This document shows positions 10,715 to 63,532 of a DNA stretch of 64,000 bases, piece by piece. Below the pieces are notes generated by a model that saw only the letters and a list, made by a program, of their open reading frames with translations, had not been told where the DNA came from and made no database searches. The DNA lies in the NCBI GenBank assembly GCA_038040445.1, contig JBBPIG010000010.1, positions 1 through 64,000 of the forward strand, written 5' to 3'. A program made the translations under genes and the position numbers. Origin of the DNA: Acidobacteriota bacterium. Lineage in GTDB: Bacteria; Acidobacteriota; Blastocatellia; UBA7656. The first letter of the stretch is position 1; each line of letters starts with the position of its first letter.

Positions 10715-10729
10715 AGGACTCCTCTTTCT

Positions 10730-10757
10730 CGTTGCCTTTGCTCTTTGCCCTTTGCTC
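10730..10757. repeat. Heptamer tandem repeat (TTTGCYC), 4 units
   Basis: Four contiguous 7-bp units (consensus TTTGCCC/TTTGCTC) fill the gap between the sugar transferase stop and the exporter start. It is a member of the window-wide heptamer repeat class. Confidence 0.7.
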
Positions 10758-10763
10758 TCAGGT

Positions 10764-20938: not shown

Positions 20939-21730
20939 ATGAGCATCCACCCTACAGCGATCATCAATCCGGGCGCGAGGCTCGGCTCTAGTGTAAGCAT
21001 CGGACCTTACGCTGTGATCGAGCAGGATACCGATATTGGAGACGGCAGCGACATTCGCGCGCACGCGGTAATTAAGCGATTCACAATGCTTGGACCAGCC
21101 AACGTAATTCACGAGGGCGCAGTGCTTGGCGGTGAGCCCCAGGACCTCGACTTTGTAGACTGCACAAGCTACCTTCGCATAGGCTCAAACAATCGCATCC
21201 GCGAGGGTGTGACGATGCATCGAGGGACTCAACCAGAATCGGCCACGATCGTTGGCTCAAATTGTTTTATTATGGCTAATGCGCACGTGGCCCATAACTG
21301 CCGATTGGGAGATGAAATCATAATAGCCAACAACGTCGCGCTTGCAGGTCACGTTGAGATCGAGGATCAAGCGTTCATTTCAGGCGGAGTTGTCGTGCAT
21401 CAGTTCTGCCGCATCGGGCGTCTTGCGATGATCGGGGGAAATTCCAAGATCGTTCAGGACTGCCTGCCGTTCGTCATAACCGACGGCGCACCTGGACGCG
21501 CTCACGGCCTAAATAGTATTGGCCTTCGACGAGCGGGCTTCAAATCTAGCAATATCCACAAGCTAAAAGAGGGTTATCGTCTCGTGCTGCGATCGGGACT
21601 TCCGCTCGAACTCGCGCTTAAGCGACTCGCAGATTTCGGTGACCCGTTGGTCGATCACCTGATCGGTTTCGTTGGTGCCGCCACTCGCGGCTTCTGCCAC
21701 GAAGAAAGGAAAGAGCAAACGAAGGGTTAA
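20939..21730 (+). CDS. lpxA: UDP-N-acetylglucosamine acyltransferase LpxA
   Basis: This 263-residue enzyme transfers a 3-hydroxyacyl chain from ACP to UDP-GlcNAc, the first step of lipid A synthesis in the cytosol. The length matches E. coli LpxA (262). The left-handed beta-helix hexapeptide repeats start at once (SIHPTAIINPGARLGSSVSI). The catalytic histidine is His119 in NAHVAHNC. The C-terminal helical domain follows DGAPGRAHGLNSIGLRRAGF. The start is placed at ATG 20939 by family length, although the frame is open to 20789; the ribosome site is poor. The last codons run into a heptamer repeat. Its presence shows a lipopolysaccharide outer membrane. Confidence 0.93.
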   Translation: MSIHPTAIINPGARLGSSVSIGPYAVIEQDTDIGDGSDIRAHAVIKRFTMLGPANVIHEGAVLGGEPQDLDFVDCTSYLRIGSNNRIREGVTMHRGTQPESATIVGSNCFIMANAHVAHNCRLGDEIIIANNVALAGHVEIEDQAFISGGVVVHQFCRIGRLAMIGGNSKIVQDCLPFVITDGAPGRAHGLNSIGLRRAGFKSSNIHKLKEGYRLVLRSGLPLELALKRLADFGDPLVDHLIGFVGAATRGFCHEERKEQTKG

Positions 21731-21763
21731 GGGCAAAGCGAAGGGCTACGGGCAACGAGCGCG
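21722..21763. repeat. Heptamer tandem repeat (AAGGGCA-type)
   Basis: About six 7-bp units of AAGGGCA/GGGCAAC type follow and overlap the end of lpxA. Their complement occurs at 21802-21829, so the two arrays can form a hairpin between the convergent genes. Confidence 0.6.
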
Positions 21764-21779
21764 CGGAGGCAACGCGCCC

Positions 21780-22661
21780 CTAGCTCTCGCCGCTTCGGCT
21801 CTTGCCTTTTGCCCCTTGCCTGTTGCTTCTCCTCCAGGATTCGGCTTCTCGGCACAAGTTGTCGAGCGCGGATTGCACAGCCGCTTGTCTCCCCGCCACT
21901 TCCTCGCTGCTCGAGTCTCGCGGAACATAGATCGGCTCTGAAATAAGCGCTACCGCACGCGTGAAAGGCAAAGGTATCTGCAAGCGATCCCAACTTCGTA
22001 GCTCGATGTACCTGCTTGCGGCGATGTGAAATGGAAGTATCGCTTGCCCCGTGTGGCGAGCCAGTGTGACTGCTCCGGGCTTTGCCACGTGAGCGGGGCC
22101 GCGCGGGCCGTCAATCGTAAATCCTACTTCGATTCCGCTGTTCGAACACTCAGCCATCTCAGCCAGCGCCCGACCGCCGCCTCGAGTCGACGATCCCCGC
22201 GCCGTGCCGTAGCCGAATCGTTTTATCACACGTCCCGTGTACTCGGCGTCGCGGCTGATGCTTGACATCACTACAATACCCCGGTCGCGCCAAAACCAGG
22301 TTGCGCTGAGTATGCATACGTGCCAAAAGGTAAAGATCGGTTGATGTCCGGACGAGAGAATCGAGTCGAGATGCTCGCGGCCTCGCACTTCCCATCGCAG
22401 CGTCGAGCAGATCACGCGAATCAACAAATAGAAAAAAACGTCCGCGGCGTAAATGATCCATCGGTCGCGCGGTCCATAATTCGACAGATCGCTGAAACTG
22501 TAGACGCGGCTCCGCAGGGCATCCAAGCCGGCCGATTCTCTTGGTCGTGAGGCCCGGCGCGCCGCTCGGCGTGAGCTATCGCTCCCTTCAGTAGCAGCCC
22601 GCTTCGGGCCTTCGGTTGTAAGCGGATCAATCGGAACTAACATCAGTATGCTTGCCGGCAC
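21780..22661 (-). CDS. DUF374 lysophospholipid acyltransferase-like protein
   Basis: This 293-residue membrane-associated protein belongs to the DUF374 branch of the PlsC/LPLAT superfamily, often located with lipid A genes. The signature is IFTFWHVCILSATWFWRD (the acyltransferase His is in FTFWH), then SSISRDAEYTGRVIKRFGYG, RGSSTRGGGRAL and FTIDGPRGPAHVAKPG. It may acylate a lipid A precursor or lipoprotein-linked lipid; the substrate is unknown. Start is GTG 22661, two nt after the permease stop, or ATG 22643. The final 15 residues are encoded by a heptamer repeat and add a basic RQGAKGKSR tail, so the native C-terminus may have been altered. It converges with lpxA. Confidence 0.82.
   Translation of the reverse strand: MPASILMLVPIDPLTTEGPKRAATEGSDSSRRAARRASRPRESAGLDALRSRVYSFSDLSNYGPRDRWIIYAADVFFYLLIRVICSTLRWEVRGREHLDSILSSGHQPIFTFWHVCILSATWFWRDRGIVVMSSISRDAEYTGRVIKRFGYGTARGSSTRGGGRALAEMAECSNSGIEVGFTIDGPRGPAHVAKPGAVTLARHTGQAILPFHIAASRYIELRSWDRLQIPLPFTRAVALISEPIYVPRDSSSEEVAGRQAAVQSALDNLCREAESWRRSNRQGAKGKSRSGES
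21802..21829. repeat. Heptamer tandem repeat (TTGCCYY), 4 units
   Basis: Four contiguous 7-bp units (TTGCCTT, TTGCCCC and variants) lie within the 3' end of the acyltransferase gene. They are inverted relative to the array at 21722-21763. Confidence 0.7.
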
Positions 22662-29865: not shown

Positions 29866-29907
29866 GGTTTCTGGTTTGTAGTTTCCGGTTTCTGGTTTCT
29901 GGCTTAT
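29866..29907. repeat. Heptamer tandem repeat (GGTTTCT), 6 units
   Basis: Six contiguous exact 7-bp units (GGTTTCT and variants) lie immediately upstream of the ADOP start, between it and the 5' stub of another ADOP gene. A short GAATCCGT duplication follows at 29912. Confidence 0.8.
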
Positions 29908-29951
29908 AGTCCGAATCCGTGCGAATCCGTCCAACCCGCGTTATCGGTGGT

Positions 29952-45774: not shown

Positions 45775-46482
45775 TCAATCGCCTTTGTTCAAATAGATCA
45801 CACGCGGCTTCGTGCCGAGTTCTTCAAGCAATCGGATCGCGCGGTTGCTCTTTGCAAGCCGCGATACTTCACTCTCCGGATCTGCGATGTTGCCGAAGTA
45901 CATTGCCTTCGTCTGGCAAGTCTGAACACACGCCGGCGTTACGTCACCATCGCGCACTTCGCGGCCTTCGTCTTTCGCTTTGTCTTCGCCCTTGCGAATG
46001 CGCTGGATGCAGAACGTACACTTCTCCATCACGCCTCGCGTGCGCACTGACACTTCCGGGTTCAGAGCTTTTTCGAGCGGCGCGTCCCATTTCGGATCGA
46101 AGAAGTTGAAGAAGCGCACCGTGTACGGGCAGTTGTTCGCGCAGTAGCGAGTACCCACACACCGGTTGTAAACTTGCGCGTTCAAGCCTTCGTCGGTGTG
46201 ATAAGTCGCATAGACCGGGCACACCGGTTCACAAGGCGCTTCCTCGCAATGCTGGCAGAGCACCGGCATGAACTTGACCTTTACGTCGGGGTATTCGCCT
46301 TCGAAGTAGCGTTCGATGCGAATCCAGTTGATCGAGCGTCCCTTCGCGGCTTCTTCGGGTCCGACGGTGGGGATGTTATTCTCGACGCGGCAAGCGACGA
46401 CGCACGCTTCGCATCCGGTGCAGCGGTCGAGGTCGATCACCATCGCCCACTGAGGTTTGTTTGATTTGGTTGCTTCGGTCAT
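45775..46482 (-). CDS. Four-cluster ferredoxin subunit, ActB2-like
   Basis: This 235-residue iron-sulfur protein of the PsrB/NrfC/DmsB type has four cysteine groups for cubane clusters. These are CTGCEACVVAC near residue 21, CQHCEEAPCEPVCP near 77, CVGTRYCANNCP near 107, and CTFC with the later CVQTCQ. It would wire the molybdopterin-type subunit to the NrfD-like membrane subunit and haems at the periplasmic face. In Alternative Complex III this part (B2) is usually fused to B1; here they are separate genes. A heptamer repeat sits right before its start. It is followed not by actC but by two unrelated exported-protein genes. Confidence 0.9.
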   Translation of the reverse strand: MTEATKSNKPQWAMVIDLDRCTGCEACVVACRVENNIPTVGPEEAAKGRSINWIRIERYFEGEYPDVKVKFMPVLCQHCEEAPCEPVCPVYATYHTDEGLNAQVYNRCVGTRYCANNCPYTVRFFNFFDPKWDAPLEKALNPEVSVRTRGVMEKCTFCIQRIRKGEDKAKDEGREVRDGDVTPACVQTCQTKAMYFGNIADPESEVSRLAKSNRAIRLLEELGTKPRVIYLNKGD

Positions 46483-46484
46483 CT

Positions 46485-46512
46485 GGTTTCGGGTTCAGGG
46501 TTCAGGGTTCAA
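46485..46512. repeat. Heptamer tandem repeat (GGTTCAG), 4 units
   Basis: Four contiguous 7-bp units lie between the B1 and B2 genes, only three bases from the B2 start codon. Confidence 0.85.
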
Positions 46513-46560
46513 GCTTTAGCTTGCCGGCCGCACACGCAACCTGAAGGTTGAACTCTGAGC

Positions 46561-48743: not shown

Positions 48744-48829
48744 GTTCAGGGTTCAGGGTTCGTGGTTCCGGGTTGAACCCTGAACACTGAACCCGGAACC
48801 CGGAACTTGTTCCCGGAACCCGGAACTTG
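48744..48829. repeat. Heptamer array with internal inversion
   Basis: Four GTTCAGG-type units (48744-48771) are followed by seven inverted units (GAACCCG/GAACTTG, 48775-48829, one unit shortened to 6 bp). This makes a palindromic array between the cytochrome and B1 genes. It could fold into a hairpin. Confidence 0.85.
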
Positions 48830-48833
48830 TCTT

Positions 48834-49569: not shown

Positions 49570-52407
49570 TCAATACATTCGCTCAAGCTTGATCCCCGTG
49601 TAGTACTTTTGAAGAATCGCCGTGTACGTGTAGCCATCCTTCGCCAATCCATACGCACCAGTCTGGCACATTCCAACACCGTGGCCCCAGCCTCGTCCCG
49701 TAAACACAAACGCGACAACGCGGCCTCCCGTATCAGTCTCGCGGTCGACTACGAAGAGATATTCCTTCACGCCGAGCGCCGCCCGAATCTGAGGGCGGCG
49801 CAATCGCACGTGGCCTTCATCCCCTTTAACTTCGACCTCCGTTACCCGGCTTGAAGAGCTGAAAGCCACCGGCTCGATTTCCTCAACTCGTCCGACCTTT
49901 ATGCGGGCGCGAGTGAGCCGCTGCTGGAGATCTTCGACTGGAACGCGCTCTTGCCACTGAGCCACGCTCGAAAAGCGGTCGCTCGAAGCGCCGCGCTCTG
50001 AAGCTGCTGCTTCGAGGAAGTCCACCAGCCCCGCGGCGTTCAGATGGTAGGTGACGCGCTCGCCGCCTACGAGCGGTAGCCGGTCAACCACGTAGCTCTC
50101 GCCGCCCACGTTACGGAACAACCACGCGTCGTCGGCGACTTCGATGCCGTTAGGTTGGACATTTCGCTGTGCACCGTCTTGCGCCGTGAACTTCGGGGGC
50201 GCGAGATCCTTTGCCGCAACTCCCGGCGGGTTGTTTTCGCGCGTCTCATCTTGCTGGGCGCGCGCAACGCGGGCGGGTGCGCTCGCGTTCACACTCGTGA
50301 AGCGCGAACCTTGCCCGCGCGTCCCAGCGTTAATCGACGCCAGGATCAAACGCCCATTTTCCGAGGCCGCCGAAGTTTCAACCTTGAAACCGGAGGTCTG
50401 AGCTTTGAAATTTGAGATTTGAGATTTGCGATCGGCGGTTGATTTCGAAAAGATCGCGTGAGCCAGAGTCTCAACCGCCTGTGCTCGGGTGATCGAAGTG
50501 CGTCCGTCAAGTGGCGCGCCGGCAGGCAGACGAAGTATGCCTTCTCTTAACAGCATCGCCATATCCGCGCGGGCCGCTCGAGGCAACTGTTCGGCTCGCA
50601 AGCCAGCGAGCAAGTAGTCGACGTCCGCCGGAGCCAGCAGCGTGCTCGCCCGGTTTTCGCCGTAGATCGATGCCGCAACCAGACGCGCGAACTCAACCAG
50701 CCGCGTCACGTCGCCGTACTCGAAACTGAGCTTCTCTCTTCGAGCGAGCCGCGCGATGTTTTCTATCCAGCTCTTCACCTCCGCTTGATCGGGCGAGCCG
50801 CGCAGATAGTTACTCGTCAAGCGGCGCGGAAGCGACAACCCGAGCACCGAAAGCAGCGCGACTTCTCGAGCGATCGATCGACCGTCGGTTCCGGCCAGGA
50901 GCTCCGGCGTTCGTTTGGTCGCGATGTCTCGCCCCGCAAGCGACTGCCGGTCAGAAGCGCACGCGACCCCGCGAAGATAGGCCACGGCCTTTCCTCCGAA
51001 AACTTCTTCGTTATTCTCGGTTCGGCCCCCGCAGTTGGCGGTGTATAGCGCTTCTATGGGCGTGAGTTTTCCATCTTCGTCCGGAAAGACCGCAACCACG
51101 CCGCGCGTCTCGTGGATTGCGCGATTGGTCAGCTCGCGTTCCGAGGAGCGCCCGCCGTACACCTGATCGCGAGTGTCGTCGACAAGATCGAATCCATCAT
51201 CTCGATGACGGCTCATGCGCGCGAGCGCGTAAGAGCGCGCCGCGATCGCTTGCGCCTTTAACGCTTCGATCTCGGGATAGGCGCCCGGGGAAAGTTCCAT
51301 CGGCACCACCCCGCAAAGATAGTCTTCAAGCGGGAGCGCGTTCACCACATTGATCCGTCCGCGCGAGTTCAAAATGAGATGTATCTCGCCGCGATACTCT
51401 CTTTCTCCCACTCGAACCGTCTGCGGTCCTGAAGCAGAGACGTTTGAGGCCGCAATTGCGCTATCGCCCGGTTGGGTTCGTTCTCTGGAACTACTCGACA
51501 AGATCGGCTCGCTGCTGCGTTTGTCGCGCCGCTGCTCGGCCGCCGCGGAGACTATCAGTTCGTTCCCGCTTGAAAGCGCGATCTTATCCGCGGACAGCCC
51601 GACTATCTGAAGCTCGCCGCGTCCCGGCTTCACGCTCGAACGATCGGTCGAGTAGCCGGCTTGAGCTTTGTGTTTTGCGGCACGGGCATTTGTGTCGCTG
51701 CCCGAGTCCGGCGCGCGGCTTTCTGTCGCGTTCGAATCGGTCACTATTCGCAAGTCTTCGTAATCCTTCGCGCGCAAGCGCTCCAGCATGCGCGCCGCCT
51801 CGTTTCGAGTTTTGAACTCACCGATCAACACCTCGTATTCTTTGTGCTTCTCGTCGAAGGCCATCGTCACCGGCTCGGAGAATTTCTTCTTGAGCTCGTC
51901 GATAAGTTTGCGGGCGCGGCGCGATTCAGAGAAAGCCCCCAGGCTCACACGATACGAGGATTCGTTGGAATGGAGCGGCGCTGCCTTGTCGGATTGACGG
52001 CGCAATTCCACGCGCAGCGTTCCGCTCGAGATTTTCTTGCCCTCATCGAGGCTCGCGGGCGCGCGATTCACAACGAGGCCGGATGAACAACTGAGCGCGA
52101 CCGACGTGACATCGGTCATCAGCGCGATTCGAATGATGGGACCATCGGGCGAAGGAGACTTAGCGCGGCCGGCTTGCGGTTCTACGGTGCGAGGGCGAGT
52201 GGAGCTTCTATCCTCGCTTTGTTGGTTGCTCCTGGCACGATCCTTTGAAGATGAGGATTGTTTCTGTGCGGGCACCGCTCCGGCGAAGGTGACGGTCGCC
52301 GCAAGCAAGGCGCTTTGAGCACAGCCCGAGACAACTAGTGCCAGAGCGAATGCCAGACCGAATGCGAGACGACGCGCTGGACGCCCGCTTCTATTCACGA
52401 TGTTCAT
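49570..52407 (-). CDS. SpoIID/LytB-domain lipoprotein with SPOR domain
   Basis: This 945-residue protein has a lipoprotein signal (lipobox VSGC29) and a Ser-rich linker. A SPOR-like domain at about residues 145-215 has two repeats, SYRVSLGAFSESRRARKLID and YEVLIGEFKTRNEAARMLER. The SpoIID/LytB domain starts near residue 345 (NVVNALPLEDYLCGVVPMEL, then LKAQAIAARSYALA). The conserved end WGHGVGMCQTGAYGLA is near the C-terminus. SpoIID-like enzymes are lytic transglycosylases that cut peptidoglycan stripped of stem peptides; SPOR domains bind such glycans. It probably remodels the wall at division. The SpoIID region is interrupted by about 300 extra residues that include a 7-residue repeat at about 657-677, encoded by a heptamer array. 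Confidence 0.85.
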   Translation of the reverse strand: MNIVNRSGRPARRLAFGLAFALALVVSGCAQSALLAATVTFAGAVPAQKQSSSSKDRARSNQQSEDRSSTRPRTVEPQAGRAKSPSPDGPIIRIALMTDVTSVALSCSSGLVVNRAPASLDEGKKISSGTLRVELRRQSDKAAPLHSNESSYRVSLGAFSESRRARKLIDELKKKFSEPVTMAFDEKHKEYEVLIGEFKTRNEAARMLERLRAKDYEDLRIVTDSNATESRAPDSGSDTNARAAKHKAQAGYSTDRSSVKPGRGELQIVGLSADKIALSSGNELIVSAAAEQRRDKRSSEPILSSSSRERTQPGDSAIAASNVSASGPQTVRVGEREYRGEIHLILNSRGRINVVNALPLEDYLCGVVPMELSPGAYPEIEALKAQAIAARSYALARMSRHRDDGFDLVDDTRDQVYGGRSSERELTNRAIHETRGVVAVFPDEDGKLTPIEALYTANCGGRTENNEEVFGGKAVAYLRGVACASDRQSLAGRDIATKRTPELLAGTDGRSIAREVALLSVLGLSLPRRLTSNYLRGSPDQAEVKSWIENIARLARREKLSFEYGDVTRLVEFARLVAASIYGENRASTLLAPADVDYLLAGLRAEQLPRAARADMAMLLREGILRLPAGAPLDGRTSITRAQAVETLAHAIFSKSTADRKSQISNFKAQTSGFKVETSAASENGRLILASINAGTRGQGSRFTSVNASAPARVARAQQDETRENNPPGVAAKDLAPPKFTAQDGAQRNVQPNGIEVADDAWLFRNVGGESYVVDRLPLVGGERVTYHLNAAGLVDFLEAAASERGASSDRFSSVAQWQERVPVEDLQQRLTRARIKVGRVEEIEPVAFSSSSRVTEVEVKGDEGHVRLRRPQIRAALGVKEYLFVVDRETDTGGRVVAFVFTGRGWGHGVGMCQTGAYGLAKDGYTYTAILQKYYTGIKLERMY
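50376..50438. repeat. Heptamer repeat inside coding sequence
   Basis: Nine 7-bp register-keeping units (TTTGAGA, TTTGAAA and diverged forms) lie in frame within the SpoIID-like gene. Three units make seven codons, so the protein shows a 7-residue repeat: KSQISNF, KAQTSGF, KVETSAA. Confidence 0.8.
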
Positions 52408-53401: not shown

Positions 53402-53416
53402 AACTTCTTGAACGCG

Positions 53417-53493
53417 GTTTCTAGTTTCTGGTTTCTAGTTTCGGCGTTCGTGGTTCAGGGTTCGTGGTTCAGGGTTCAGGGTTCAGGGTTTCA
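53417..53493. repeat. Heptamer array, 11 units, two unit types
   Basis: Eleven contiguous units keep a strict 7-bp register: four of GTTTCTA type shade into seven of GGTTCAG/GGTTCGT type. The complement of nearly the whole array occurs at 53549-53621. Confidence 0.9.
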
Positions 53494-53548
53494 AGTCGTT
53501 TGCTACTCATGAATGTCCGCTAGCTGAGTTCAAAGACGACCTCTCGAA

Positions 53549-53621
53549 CTCTGAACCCTGAACCACGAACCCTGAACCCTGAACCCTGAACCACGAACGC
53601 CGACACTAGAAACCAGAAACT
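53549..53621. repeat. Heptamer array, inverted copy
   Basis: This array is the reverse complement of the one at 53417-53493, with the same order of unit types and few changes. The pair forms an inverted repeat of about 70 bp arms around a 55-nt centre, in the gap between the TonB-like gene and the serine hydrolase gene. Confidence 0.88.
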
Positions 53622-54844
53622 CTTTCCACTCTTTCAACCGCCAGCGAGTTAAAACGCCGCCTTATCTCTTTCATATCAAACGCATCGACTCTTGGATGAA
53701 CCCGATTCGTAATTAGAACGAACACGCGCCGCTTGTGCGGGTCCATCCATATGCTTGCTCCAGTGAAGCCGTTATGGCCGAAGGCGGTCGGAGGAAGCGC
53801 CGGCCCGGCCGAACAGTCGGGCGTCTCCGCCAGTACCCACGCGAATGACCTCGACGTCGCGCAGCCCCGCGTGAAGTTGTCGCTGAACAAGTGAAGCGAC
53901 TCGGACCGCAGAAGCTCGCTGCCAGGCAAGAACTGATTTGCCATCCGGAATACTTCGCGCGCAGTTGAAAACAATCCGGCGTGCCCGGCTACCCCGCCCA
54001 TGAAGTGCGCGTTGCCATCGTGAACCTCTCCCAAAATCAAGTCCTTCCGCCACCGGTAGCGCGAGGAGATCGACGAAGACGCGCCGCCAGGCGACCTGAC
54101 CGAGAGTTCCAGGAGCGAAGCTTCGTGGTCTTCCGCTGCGAACCGAATAGGCGTGTCAAAGCCCATCAACCGCCGCCGGGCAGTCACGTCGGCGACCGCG
54201 TTCGCAAGCTCAAACGACTGGCCGTGCTCGGTCGCCGCGATCTCGCGACGCAGTTCCGGCGCCGGGTTGAACATGGTGCGCTTCAGATCCAATGGCTCGA
54301 ATATCTCTCTTTCCGCCAACCGGTCGAGCCGCTCGCCCGTGATCCGCTCCAGCACAAAGGCCAGAAGAATATAGTTTAGATCGCTGTAGATTACTTCACG
54401 CGGACCTTTCGGCTGCTGCGGTTCAAGCAGGATTTGGGAAATCGTGGCCGGGACATCCGCGCGAGTTTCGGCTTCCAGGTAAAGCGGGCGCCAGTTGGGC
54501 AAACCCGAGGTATGACTCATCAGTTGAGCCAGCGTGATCTCACGCTTGTCTTTATCATCAAACTCACTCAAGTACCGGGCAAGCGGCGCGTTCAAATCCA
54601 GTACTCCGCGTTCGGCGAATCTCACGACTAGCAGCGCCGTGACAAGCGGCTTAGTGAGCGAGGCGAGATCGTAGATTGTATCGAGGGTGACCGCTATGAT
54701 CTCGGGCTCGATGACCGCGCGGCCCAATGCATCCTCGGCGACGATTTGTCCATCCTCGCCAATAACGTACTGCGCGCCGGGAAACGAGCCGCGCGCAATT
54801 TCCGATTGGAGATAGCTGGAAATGATTTCAGCGCTGTTTGCCAT
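53606..54844 (-). CDS. Class C-type serine hydrolase
   Basis: This 412-residue enzyme is of the beta-lactamase/PBP4*-esterase family. The motifs are SLTK (in YDLASLTKPLVTALL, about residues 60-74), YSD in the Tyr-motif position (VIYSDLNYILL) and HNG (FGHNGFTGASIWMDP) in place of KTG. No signal peptide is visible, so it is probably cytosolic or non-classically exported. The function may be an esterase or peptidase. The last codons overlap the inverted heptamer array, which contributes the C-terminal residues. The gene is downstream of, and on the same strand as, the SpoU methyltransferase gene. Confidence 0.87.
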   Translation of the reverse strand: MANSAEIISSYLQSEIARGSFPGAQYVIGEDGQIVAEDALGRAVIEPEIIAVTLDTIYDLASLTKPLVTALLVVRFAERGVLDLNAPLARYLSEFDDKDKREITLAQLMSHTSGLPNWRPLYLEAETRADVPATISQILLEPQQPKGPREVIYSDLNYILLAFVLERITGERLDRLAEREIFEPLDLKRTMFNPAPELRREIAATEHGQSFELANAVADVTARRRLMGFDTPIRFAAEDHEASLLELSVRSPGGASSSISSRYRWRKDLILGEVHDGNAHFMGGVAGHAGLFSTAREVFRMANQFLPGSELLRSESLHLFSDNFTRGCATSRSFAWVLAETPDCSAGPALPPTAFGHNGFTGASIWMDPHKRRVFVLITNRVHPRVDAFDMKEIRRRFNSLAVERVERVSGF

Positions 54845-54912
54845 TAGTTCGCAACCGCTTTACTACTCAGAGAGTATAACGTCAGATTGCGATGGTTGAG
54901 AAGCAGGAGGGA

Positions 54913-54968
54913 GTGATGCGTGATCCGTGATTCGTGATGCGTGATCCGTGATGCGTGAACCGTGATGA
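54913..54968. repeat. Heptamer tandem repeat (GTGATGC), 8 units
   Basis: Eight perfect-register 7-bp units (GTGATGC, GTGATCC, GTGATTC, GTGAACC, GTGATGA) are followed at 54983-55010 by inverted GCATCAC units. The array lies between the hydrolase start and the SpoU gene stop. Confidence 0.92.
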
Positions 54969-55006
54969 CTGACCACCTCATCCGGTCACGCATCACGCAT
55001 CACATC

Positions 55007-55873
55007 TCATGCATCAGTCTTTCCCCGAAATCGGAACTCTCGTTGCCGGGCTGTTTCATAAAGCAGCATCGCCGCCGCAGCAGAGACGTTGAGCGATTCG
55101 ACTCCGTCCGCCATCGGGATGTGCACGAACTCGTCGGCGTCTACCTCCGCAGACCCTGGTATCCCAGTTGCCTCGCTCCCGACGATCAAAGCGATCGGCA
55201 CGGTCATATCCACCTCGACACACAGCTTGACCGTCGCCGCCCGAGCCGCATCCTCGATGATCGGTTGAGCTCGAGCTGGCATTGGGCACGAGGCGATTAT
55301 CTTTATCTTATGCTCGCGGCAGCGCGCGACTATGTCCTGACTCTTTGCGCCGGTGACGACCGGCAATCGAAGCGCCGAGCCCATCGAAGCGCGAATCGAT
55401 TTGTCATTGAAAGGGTCGACTGTGTAGCGAGTTGTTATGAGGCCGCTCGCTCCTGCCGCTTCGGCCGTCCGAATTATCGTGCCGAGATTTCCCGGGTCCT
55501 GCAGCCCGTCGGCAATGACTAGCAGATCAGGGGAACTCGCGAATAAATCATCGAGCTCGAAATAGGGCCGGCTGACGATGGCAGCCACTCCTTGCGGCGT
55601 TTTGGTGTCGGCGATGACTTCCATCACCTGCTTCGAAACGAGCGCGCCGCGGCATTGCACGCGACGCAGCGACTCGAGTAAGACGGCGCCTCGCTCGCTG
55701 GATTCAAGCTCGCCGGTGAAGGCGACGCTTTCGAAGCGCACTCCAGTGCTGATCGCATCTTCTATTAATCGAACGCCCTCCAGAAACACGTGCTGCCGCT
55801 CGCCCATCGAGCGCACGCGGCGAAAGCGTTTGACCAGCGGGTTCTGGCGACTGGTGATTTTCTCAACGAGCAT
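55007..55873 (-). CDS. SpoU/TrmH-family RNA methyltransferase
   Basis: This 288-residue enzyme uses S-adenosylmethionine to methylate a ribose 2'-OH in rRNA or tRNA. An N-terminal substrate-binding domain (about residues 5-95, with HVFLEGVRLIEDA) precedes the knotted SPOUT domain. Motif 1 is DPGNLGTIIRTAEAAGA, motif 2 is LIVGSEATGIP and motif 3 is VESLNVSAAAAMLLYETAR. The protein resembles RlmB/TsnR-type 23S rRNA methyltransferases; the exact target is unknown. ATG 55873 is the start. The 3' end merges with inverted heptamer units. The MITE at 55933 lies 60 bp upstream of the start and may have displaced its promoter. Confidence 0.92.
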   Translation of the reverse strand: MLVEKITSRQNPLVKRFRRVRSMGERQHVFLEGVRLIEDAISTGVRFESVAFTGELESSERGAVLLESLRRVQCRGALVSKQVMEVIADTKTPQGVAAIVSRPYFELDDLFASSPDLLVIADGLQDPGNLGTIIRTAEAAGASGLITTRYTVDPFNDKSIRASMGSALRLPVVTGAKSQDIVARCREHKIKIIASCPMPARAQPIIEDAARAATVKLCVEVDMTVPIALIVGSEATGIPGSAEVDADEFVHIPMADGVESLNVSAAAAMLLYETARQREFRFRGKTDA

Positions 55874-56744
55874 GGTTGAACGCCCGGCACAGTATACTAC
55901 ACCGTCGCGTAGACTCAGTTCGGGCGTGCATCGGTAGTGTCCTAATCTTGTGTTAGTCGACTAGGACACTATCGGCCGACCGCGTATTTGGACTGCGGTG
56001 GCGTCTTTGCGTTGCCACCGCTTTCTGTCGTTTCGTGGGCGATAACCAAAAGCGGCGGCAACGCACAAAGGCCGCCGCAGTCCAAATAATCCGTCGCCCG
56101 TCATCGGTGTCGTGCGCCAGGGCACCTGCAAATATCAACACAAGATTAGGACACTACCCGTGCATCGAGTGAGTCTTCGATGACAAGAATGTTTGCTCCG
56201 AAGGCGCAATTGTCCGGGTCACTCCCAAGATTCCGTGACCAGCGCAATATCTGGGGGCCTTTCCTGGCTCGTTCAACGAAATTAATGACCGCTTCCGCGA
56301 ATGCGCTTTCCCAGGAATGAACAGCCGCCGCCCGCCCGCGGCTGCGTACCCCCGATTTAATCCGGCGTATGAAACATTTGAGCGAACGAGAGAGCCTGGC
56401 ACGCTAGTTGGCTACGCTGTTGAAGCGGGGCAACCTAGCCTGCGTCGTTTCGGCTAACGGTTTCTCTCTTCGTCCGAAGAGAGATTCTAGCGTTGGACAA
56501 AAACGTTCCGATCTTTGACGTGAGGACCATGGATGATCGCAGCTCGGATGCGACGGAGTCGTAGAAGAGGAAGCTGATGAGAGCGCCTTTTGGATGGATT
56601 GATCATCGACGGAAGCCTCCTCCCCGCCGCCAAGGTCGAGCCCTTGCTTAGGGAAGCTAACGAACTGGTTGCAATCATGGCGGCGTCGCGGATCTCAGCC
56701 GCGCGCCGGAAGCAATCGGCAATCGCCAATCGGAAATCGGAAAT
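55874..56744. other. Repeat-bearing gap upstream of ADOP gene
   Basis: This 871-bp gap holds the MITE (55933-56158) with its target duplications, then about 420 bp of non-coding or decayed sequence, a candidate four-helix-bundle gene remnant (56581-56748) and a heptamer array. Confidence 0.6.
55933..56158. mobile_element. MITE, 226 bp, with 8-bp target duplication
   Basis: Perfect 22-bp terminal inverted repeats (starting GGTAGTGTCC) lie at 55933-55954 and 56137-56158. The element is flanked on both sides by CGTGCATC (55925-55932 and 56159-56166), an exact 8-bp target-site duplication. Inside is a second inverted repeat with arms of about 44 bp beginning TATTTGGACTGCGG (55985) and ending at 56086. 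There is no coding capacity. An 8-bp duplication and GGNNNTG-type ends fit what is known of the IS1595 family, which could supply transposase. A second copy is cut by the window start. Confidence 0.93.
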
Positions 56745-63186: not shown

Positions 63187-63243
63187 GCCTATTTGGACTG
63201 CGCCACCCTATTTGGACTGCGCCACCCTATTTGGACTGCGCCG
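63187..63243. repeat. Three tandem 19-bp repeats
   Basis: Three consecutive 19-bp units (CCCTATTTGGACTGCGCCA and near-identical) start at 63187, 63206 and 63225. The last merges with the left arm of the hairpin element. Confidence 0.92.
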
Positions 63244-63435
63244 CCCTATTCCTCATTGTGTGACCGTCGAATGCGTGGCGGCGCTTTCTTTGGCTTGAGT
63301 AGCGCACAATCAACCGAGCCCTGACCAAGCACCGACGCGTGTGGTCTTGGCTGGGCGGAACCATTCGGAGCCAAAAGCGCCGCCACGCATGCGACAGTCA
63401 CACAATGAGGAATAGGGCGGCGCACTCCAAATAGG
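63226..63435. repeat. Inverted-repeat (hairpin) element
   Basis: The left arm (63226-63294) and right arm (63370-63435) are reverse complements over about 66 bp with a few mismatches and a small indel. The centre is 75 nt. The outer core TATTTGGACTGCG and inner GGCGGCGCTTT are shared in layout with the inner repeat of the MITE at 55985-56086. It has no coding capacity. Confidence 0.88.
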
Positions 63436-63532
63436 CCACCGCAGTCCAAGCTGGTGGCATCTCAGGAGGTTCACACCGCGAAGCCTCATGCGCTAGTATT
63501 GCGATCACACACATTCCCGCTTGGGGCGTTTG

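Follow-up and report, generated by a model that had tools for sequence, protein, structure and literature searches.

Short tandem arrays with a period of 7 bp recur along a 64000-nucleotide stretch of DNA from an Acidobacteriota bacterium (assembly GCA_038040445.1, contig JBBPIG010000010.1, positions 1–64000; the window), and our analysis of this window, of its genome (G000) and of related genomes shows that most of these arrays are the paired arms of long inverted repeats, able to form hairpins, in the spacers between genes. Seven is the leading period in G000, in the same-genus genome G001 and in the related genomes G009 (another family) and G013. Repeats of this kind have already been published; the diversity of the units, the strict rule that the G-rich arm comes first and the turnover of units are new here.

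Period-7 arrays in the window, its genome and related genomes

A self-offset scan of the window found ten period-7 segments at a score of at least 12, compared with a mean of 0.0 in 20 third-order Markov shuffles; the multiples 14, 21 and 28 came next, and each remaining period gave 0–1 segments. An earlier reading of these letters (the sequence-only reading) had proposed this window-wide periodicity and had named a histogram of periods over the genome as its check. Run on sampled genome sequence, the histogram peaks at 7: 18 grid stretches of G000 (360 kb of 6.75 Mb, counts corrected by one per period for one run of N) contained 34 period-7 segments and at most six for any non-multiple of 7, and 864 kb of G000, a sample which includes two stretches picked for density (L057 and L058), contained 97, with at most eight for each non-multiple (N excluded). 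Of the 12 places listed by that reading, nine (29866, 46485, 48744, 50376, 53417, 53549, 54913, 56714 and 59156) overlap or adjoin a passing segment, the one for 50376 beginning at 50404, whereas 10730, 21722 and 21802 fall below the score and were seen by TRF only. Its term 'exact' for the repeats was an overstatement, as the period-7 arrays found by TRF in the window have 71–100% matches and are thus degenerate.

The scan of 64 control loci, which total 675 kb from diverse bacteria, yielded two period-7 segments, both from one Nitrospirae contig, on which two heptamer arrays, the sole ones in these loci, face each other (L097, 5097–5190). Among the relatives of G000, G001 had 48 period-7 segments in 336 kb (six for the next best period), G009 had 65 in 200 kb compared with 18 at period 8, and G013 had 50 in 123 kb compared with ten at period 9, the density of elements in G009 and G013 being three to four times that in G000. 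Period 7 was weak in G004 (four segments, with four likewise at period 8), G011 (two, with four at period 19) and G012 (two); four further genomes of the same family gave 11 period-7 segments in 178 kb, and there were none in the 20 kb scanned of each of G007 and G017. Octamer arrays (AAGGTGAC and GTAGCGAA) occur in G009 (L069, 8090–8215, 14994–15105 and 17963–18043; L070, 14417–14572), where one of them has an inverted counterpart, and period-9 arrays occur in G013; by eye, the period-8 arrays of G009 (e.g. AAGGTGAC) look like heptamer arrays with another step. At L039 10165–10455, a 100-base run of N is bordered on either side by identical array sequence, and contig C3 terminates within an array; the arrays seem to break this assembly.

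The elements of the window are collected in Table 1. The stem of the first hairpin pairs 53423–53490 with 53554–53621 over 68 bp and is 93% identical in register, compared with 75% at a shift of 7 and 80–83% at a shift of 14, and the DNA fold of 53410–53625 has an energy of −80.5 kcal/mol (z −15.6 compared with shuffles). The change of unit within one array that the sequence-only reading had described is present here in both arms, and the 3′ arm overlaps the called end of a beta-lactamase-family gene by 16 bp. Identity in the 54906–55024 hairpin is 0.72 in register and 0.68 at the better 7-bp shift, and a GTGATGC-type element is also found at the orthologous site of G001; in the compact hairpin at 48744–48830, shifted pairing equals register-true pairing. 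TRF reads 21711–21755 as period 19 and gives 72% matches for 21799–21830.

Table 1. Repeat elements of the window
Feature	Position	Strand	Evidence
5′ G-rich arm, GTTTCTA units changing to GGTTCAG/GTTCGTG	53417..53490	+	self-offset scan, stem search
Hairpin loop, 63 nt	53491..53553	.	stem search
3′ C-rich arm, mirror image with identical unit change and junction	53546..53621	+	scan, stem search
Second hairpin, GTGATGC/GTGATCC units, between beta-lactamase-family and SpoU genes	54906..55024	+	scan; 54913–55016 without outer stem bases
Compact hairpin, GTTCAGG / GAACCCG, with 20-bp duplication	48744..48830	+	TRF, stem search
GGGTTCA array in front of gene starting at 46482, runs into CAAGCTTTAGCTTG, no partner at score used	46491..46511	+	scan
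GGTTTCT array in divergent spacer, no partner at score used	29866..29910	+	TRF, scan
GCAATCG array, 6 bp before called start of MacB/FtsX-type gene, no partner at score used	56712..56744	+	scan
GGTTCAG array, first base is last base of MacB/FtsX-type gene stop codon	59156..59189	+	scan
TGAGATT array within called SpoIID/SPOR gene	50404..50432	+	scan
Weak CTCTTTG array, 78% matches, 9% indels	10722..10758	+	TRF; below scan score
Weak possible pair, GGGCAAA/GAAGGGC-like (21711–21755) and CTCTTGC-like (21799–21830)	21711..21830	+	TRF; below scan score

Several further features were seen alongside. The SpoIID/SPOR gene of G001 has a period-7 stretch (L170, 8587–8622) at about the place matching the array of the window, and the window also holds a 19-bp tandem repeat (63188–63250, 3.3 copies, 97%) overlapping an inverted repeat at 63212–63449, as well as a gene for what we take to be an ADOP-family permease. 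GGTTCA arrays run into the small palindrome CAAGCTTTAGCTTG at 46491–46530 of the window, at L046 5800–5891 and near 19100 of L253 in G009, where the part of the palindrome shown stops at GTTCAAGCTTTA; a related hairpin, GTTCAGGCTTTAGCCTG, is present in G000. Small palindromes such as CAAGCTTTAGCTTG may be the seeds of GGTTCAG arrays.

Hairpins between genes and the order and likeness of their arms

Among 60 arrays drawn from 464 kb (the window, the 18 grid stretches, L057 and L058), 43 had an inverted partner within 300 bp, compared with one of 60 in a control using regions elsewhere. This bears out the proposal of the sequence-only reading that several arrays, including 53417/53549 and 48744, have partners with which they could form hairpins. 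The 60 arrays merge to 40 elements, i.e. 24 hairpins and 16 elements without a partner at the score used; in the 864 kb of G000, 41 of 65 elements are hairpins, and hairpins were found in G001, G009 and G013 too.

These elements lie mainly between genes (58 of the 65 in G000, with six genic and one at the edge of a stretch), according to home-made gene calls in which start positions are less certain than stops. The 41 hairpins of G000 occupy same-strand spacers (31), convergent spacers (six) and divergent spacers (two), with two scored inside genes; the divergent class is depleted, with two of 39 intergenic hairpins compared with 76 of 363 spacers of at least 100 bp (p 0.017). Many elements fill the whole gap between the neighbouring genes. 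In agreement with the earlier remark that arrays abut start and stop codons, the median distance from hairpin edge to stop codon in the four genomes is 4–6 bp, and distances of no more than 25 bp occur on 64 of the 81 stop sides and on 32 of the 77 less surely called start sides. The stop codons beside G000 elements are TGA (21), TAG (18) and TAA (7), compared with 299, 177 and 116 respectively in the sample overall. On the idea that the arrays supply stop codons, some units do contain TAG or TGA, GGTTCAG, GCAAAGA and GAAGGCA contain neither, and 7 is not a multiple of 3.

The inner direction of a palindrome is identical on both strands: whichever strand is read 5′ to 3′, the leading arm is always the G-rich one or always the C-rich one. 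The heptamer hairpins clearly show one order: 83 of 87 are G-first, with three C-first and one tie (39/42 in G000, 19/19 in G001, 11/11 in G009 and 14/15 in G013), and the eight ambiguous hairpins excluded from the 87 are all G-first as well. Other hairpins in the same sequences (n=107) are G-first in 66 cases, C-first in 31 and tied in ten, which is significant by itself (p 0.0005), but the G-first share of heptamer hairpins differs from theirs with p 3e-7. The rule holds in 38 of 41 unit classes, some of which are variants of one another, and unpaired arrays tend to obey it as though each were one half of a hairpin (55 of 68, six genomes). There is no corresponding skew in the element-free spacers of G000, in which G exceeds C at 104 of 237 left ends and 99 of 237 right ends, and those of G009 lean slightly the G-first way (20/31 left, 12/31 right). 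One conceivable cause would be selection against G-rich DNA resembling a ribosome site before start codons, given that a G-rich arm in first place leaves the C-rich arm adjoining the start in same-strand spacers. We hold this to be very unlikely and have dropped it, because convergent hairpins, which adjoin no start codon, obey the rule just as well (10 of 10 counted). The order also agrees with the strand preference that the accessible part of Rehm et al. (PMC4692102) gives for GGGAATC-type repeats, with the G-rich sequence on the coding strand where the repeat follows a stop and on the non-coding strand where it precedes a start.

In G000, the order of the units tends to be mirrored between the arms. 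Across 24 gapless stems of at least 35 bp, identity is 0.871 in register and 0.812 at the better 7-bp shift, register-true pairing being higher in 19 stems and lower in four (p 0.0005); it was also the better in four of four stems of G013 but only in four of eight of G009, and G001 provided too few stems. One stem, at L050:10407, has a gap of exactly 7 bp. Mismatches in hairpins between same-strand genes of the four genomes comprise 69 wobble-keeping transitions, 87 pair-breaking transitions and 171 transversions, part of which may be unit variants that face each other after slippage; these data give no preference for G-U among the arm mismatches.

The loops can be flipped relative to the genes. 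G000 has 12 places that match the loop motif GGTTACGAGACTGG with no more than one mismatch, and eight of these copies are flanked by sequence homologous to the flanks of another copy, with the motif facing one way in five and the opposite way in three (L211, L222 and L224). The flanks of L218 and L224 match crosswise, with 71% (118 aa) and 42.5% (80 aa); two of the eight copies, L211 and L223, show a weak reading frame of opposite direction on their other flank. In G001, a 25-nt piece of loop is present in opposite orientations in two hairpins on either side of a beta-lactamase-family gene. Such flips could alternatively come from recombination between the arms.

Within the arrays of G000, the likeness of units barely falls with distance, from 0.851 at lag 7 to 0.814 at lag 35; as identity is nearly flat, blocks of several units appear to be copied too, and slippage by one unit is insufficient. 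The phase is kept beyond the array ends with a small excess in G000 (0.276 compared with 0.235–0.265 for other phases) and also in G001, hardly in G009 and not in G013. Neighbouring elements have a unit in common slightly above background in G000 (9/41 compared with 10%) and G013 (8/29 compared with 15%), a weak effect which was not seen in G009 (7/41 compared with 16%) or G001 (1/12 compared with 17%).

Conserved sites and changing units

To compare sites between species we used G001, the genes of which are about 68–82% identical to those of G000, a distance at which single events are not visible. In 32 orthologous spacers, a heptamer element was present in both genomes in five, in G000 only in six, in G001 only in one and in neither in 20 (Fisher p 0.011). 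For hairpins of any kind at a looser threshold, the corresponding numbers were 12, 6, 3 and 10 (p 0.029) in 31 pairs, one pair with a G001 spacer of less than 30 bp being omitted; a stricter threshold with 28 pairs gave p 0.08. Four of the six G000-only sites bear some other hairpin in G001 by the loose test.

By eye, the unit differs at two of the five common sites. At L046:10830 the flanks are conserved and an outer GAGCAAA unit is common to both genomes; in one register, the G001 arm reads GAGGATA, GATGATC, GAGGACA, GAAGGCA and GTAGGCA, where G000 has GCAAAGA and GGCGAAG (by eye). The site at 53402 of the window carries GGTTCAG in G000 and GTGAAAC/GTGATGC in G001. In other cases the unit is unchanged, i.e. 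GTGATGC at 54845 of the window, GGTTCAG at L040:19519 and GAAGGCA at L039:2205. Judging from these alignments, sites tend to be kept, with some of the units being replaced. GGTTCAG triplets are present in four of 58 genomes of the class, our own included, and absent from 54, and in five of 297 genomes across the phylum, again with our own; exact counts are 48+23 in G000, 673+514 in G009 and 347+414 in G013.

Origin of the elements and their relation to known repeats

We propose that the arrays grow and change in place by slippage combined with template switching between the arms, a DNA process to which we give an even chance of being correct. Units would be added or removed, and the register left intact, by strand slippage that mostly moves 7 nt at a time. 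The nascent strand would switch template between the arms, so that one arm is copied onto the other, keeping the arms near mirror images and sometimes flipping the loop. Further slippage would spread point changes, and unit types would shade into each other and eventually be replaced while the site stays. The rule that the G-rich arm comes first suggests a G-rich nascent strand as the place where events begin, such as an RNA:DNA hybrid or a slipped strand over the first arm. The period, the hairpins, the mirrored order in G000, the flipped loops, the lack of a wobble signature, the sites that persist with changed units and the polarity are observed; the slippage, the template switching that copies the arms and the role of a hybrid are what we infer. 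In published work, template switching between arms homogenises them and inverts spacers (PMC8604942), and in yeast, RNA:DNA hybrids linked to transcription can initiate quasi-palindrome mutations (PMC3820800), in both cases according to the accessible parts of these papers. Both expectations are seen here, the inversion of spacers in the three reversed loops among the eight flank-matched copies, and the homogenisation of arms in the 19 of 24 stems of G000 and all four of G013, with an even split in G009. The published cases, as far as the accessible text goes, are for short arms in yeast, whereas the arms here are approximately 20–90 bp long with internal 7-bp repeats.

The persistence of hairpins at a site could also mean selection, and the hairpins might be selected RNA devices, i.e. 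intercistronic stem-loops which protect or end transcripts and in which selection keeps the arms paired. Their position at the 3′ ends of genes, their scarcity between divergent genes in G000 and the persistence of sites between species are what such devices would show, but G-U mismatches are not in excess over A-C ones, Rfam matches in the window amount to one tRNA only, and terminator-like sites between 46000 and 60000 number 13 compared with 14.9 in shuffles, with a single match within an array (48809–48826), in a scan which takes loops of 3–8 only and would miss these hairpins. Efficient termination is itself improbable, judging from the filled stop-to-start gaps of same-strand genes, which leave little room for a new promoter, and we regard RNA devices as an unlikely explanation overall. 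Still less probable, in our view, are non-autonomous mobile elements (MITE- or REP-like) which insert at gene ends and have heptamers as terminal repeats. One loop motif does stand at 12 places in G000, four of them (L203, L219, L221 and L225) without flanks homologous to others, and GGTTCAG triplets are patchy, being abundant in G009 and G013 and absent from most genomes of the class. Against this, there are 41 unit classes in the hairpin arms of the four related genomes, gene duplication may have carried the eight motif copies with homologous flanks, and at orthologous sites the flanks are kept while the element differs. This variety of units accords with the observation of the sequence-only reading that arrays have unlike units; a single recent sequence copied around, which it had named as a refutation, is thereby excluded, and so is one dispersed sequence as the general cause, despite the 12-place loop family.

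A link to REP/RAYT systems was pursued through Y1 transposases, which are present in nine of ten genomes searched. REP/RAYT palindromes resemble our elements as repeated intergenic hairpins; as described in the accessible part of PMC3733652 they differ in being short conserved palindromes tied to Y1 transposases. Of 30 loci fetched, 20 were read, and three of these contain a heptamer array, each 0.7–1.4 kb from the gene and none beside it, whereas ordinary REPs flank several of the genes; we reject the link. The REP-like palindromes which flank Y1 genes are CCCCAACC..GGTTGGGG, CCCACCAACGCAGTTGGTGG, CCCCCGGTTGCACCGGGGG and CCGTGGGTTTCAACCCACGG, rather than heptamers (L307 and L314 in G000, L296 in G009, L310 in G013 and L288 in G012). 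Separately, pieces of a G000 hairpin family (L046, 7318–7435) flank a G001 Y1 transposase gene on both sides (G001:C330, 8178–8892), and this family and gene are a probable REP–RAYT pair. A dedicated enzyme which writes short units, such as a reverse transcriptase or a telomerase-like activity, would fit units that drift while the register is kept and the lead of 7 in all four genomes. We consider it highly improbable, since no single fixed template could account for 41 unit classes unless the arm itself were the template, and heptamer arrays are reported in distant phyla, which favours something universal; our search for an enzyme, which covered Y1 transposases only, tied none to the arrays.

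The sequence-only reading had argued that slippage alone would give varied periods and hence that a dedicated mechanism is at work. This argument is not borne out, because in most of the genomes that have been surveyed no class of long simple repeats is more abundant than the heptanucleotides, and polymerase contact length has been proposed to set slippage (Mrazek 2007, cited in PMC4679880 and PMC4692102, both accessible in part); moreover, periods vary somewhat in the relatives of G000. The over-representation of heptamers among the long simple repeats of many bacteria was reported in 2007 (cited in PMC4692102 and PMC4679880), and a cause was proposed, for which no test is described in the accessible parts of either paper.

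The tandem heptanucleotides of cyanobacteria (Calothrix) are known as STRR sequences, and the comparison that the sequence-only reading made with them is fair. Their heptamers, mentioned in the accessible part of PMC4692102, are alike in being tandem; the accessible text gives neither hairpin pairing nor polarity for them. Rehm et al. 2015 (PMC4692102) describe heptamer repeats with the units GGGAATC and GGGGA(C/T)T in Xanthomonas and Nostoc, with inverted pairing (70 pairs in one Xanthomonas genome and 75 in another) and a strand preference. In the accessible text these form one unit family read as quadruplex DNA, in contrast with the many classes, mirrored arms and flipped loops of our elements; among our units, a G-triplet such as that of their quadruplex-capable unit is present only in the GGGTTCA type, and many of our 41 classes have none (for example AATTGAA, GATCGAG and GCAAAGA). 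The TAACTGA repeats of Beggiatoaceae, cyanobacteria and Bacteroidetes (MacGregor 2015, PMC4679880, accessible in part) are similarly intergenic, 7 bp long and patchy across phyla; unlike our arrays they have one unit, present 2–6 times in each set of the main genome, with longer sets in some Bacteroidetes, only one inverted repeat in 170 sets, and a position mainly upstream of start codons. In Geobacter metallireducens (PMC2700814, accessible in part), there are families of four to five tandem heptamers, one class of which is drawn as a strand-switching loop, but these are annotated as putative regulatory elements, whose copy number is fixed and whose family sequence is conserved. In a literature search mostly without subscription journals, we found no publication that describes heptamer hairpins from Acidobacteriota or a rule of polarity that spans unit classes.

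A broader version of slippage with template switching would be a general bacterial DNA-copying process, with short steps (mostly 7 nt) set by the machinery rather than by homology and starts on G-rich nascent strands at the ends of genes, which writes, mirrors and rewrites intergenic hairpins in many phyla. We think this rather unlikely, its chances being lowered by the period-8 and period-9 arrays of G009 and G013. If it were true, spacer DNA would be renewed all the time, with the hairpin and its G-first polarity left in place. With dozens of unit types per cell, the sequence of the unit becomes separable from its length, and the G-first rule together with the flipped loops places concrete constraints on any model. 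The polarity points to a DNA-copying process known in outline, with the cause of 7 unexplained, and such a process, if general, would make intergenic DNA change fast and would cause breaks in the assembly of environmental genomes.
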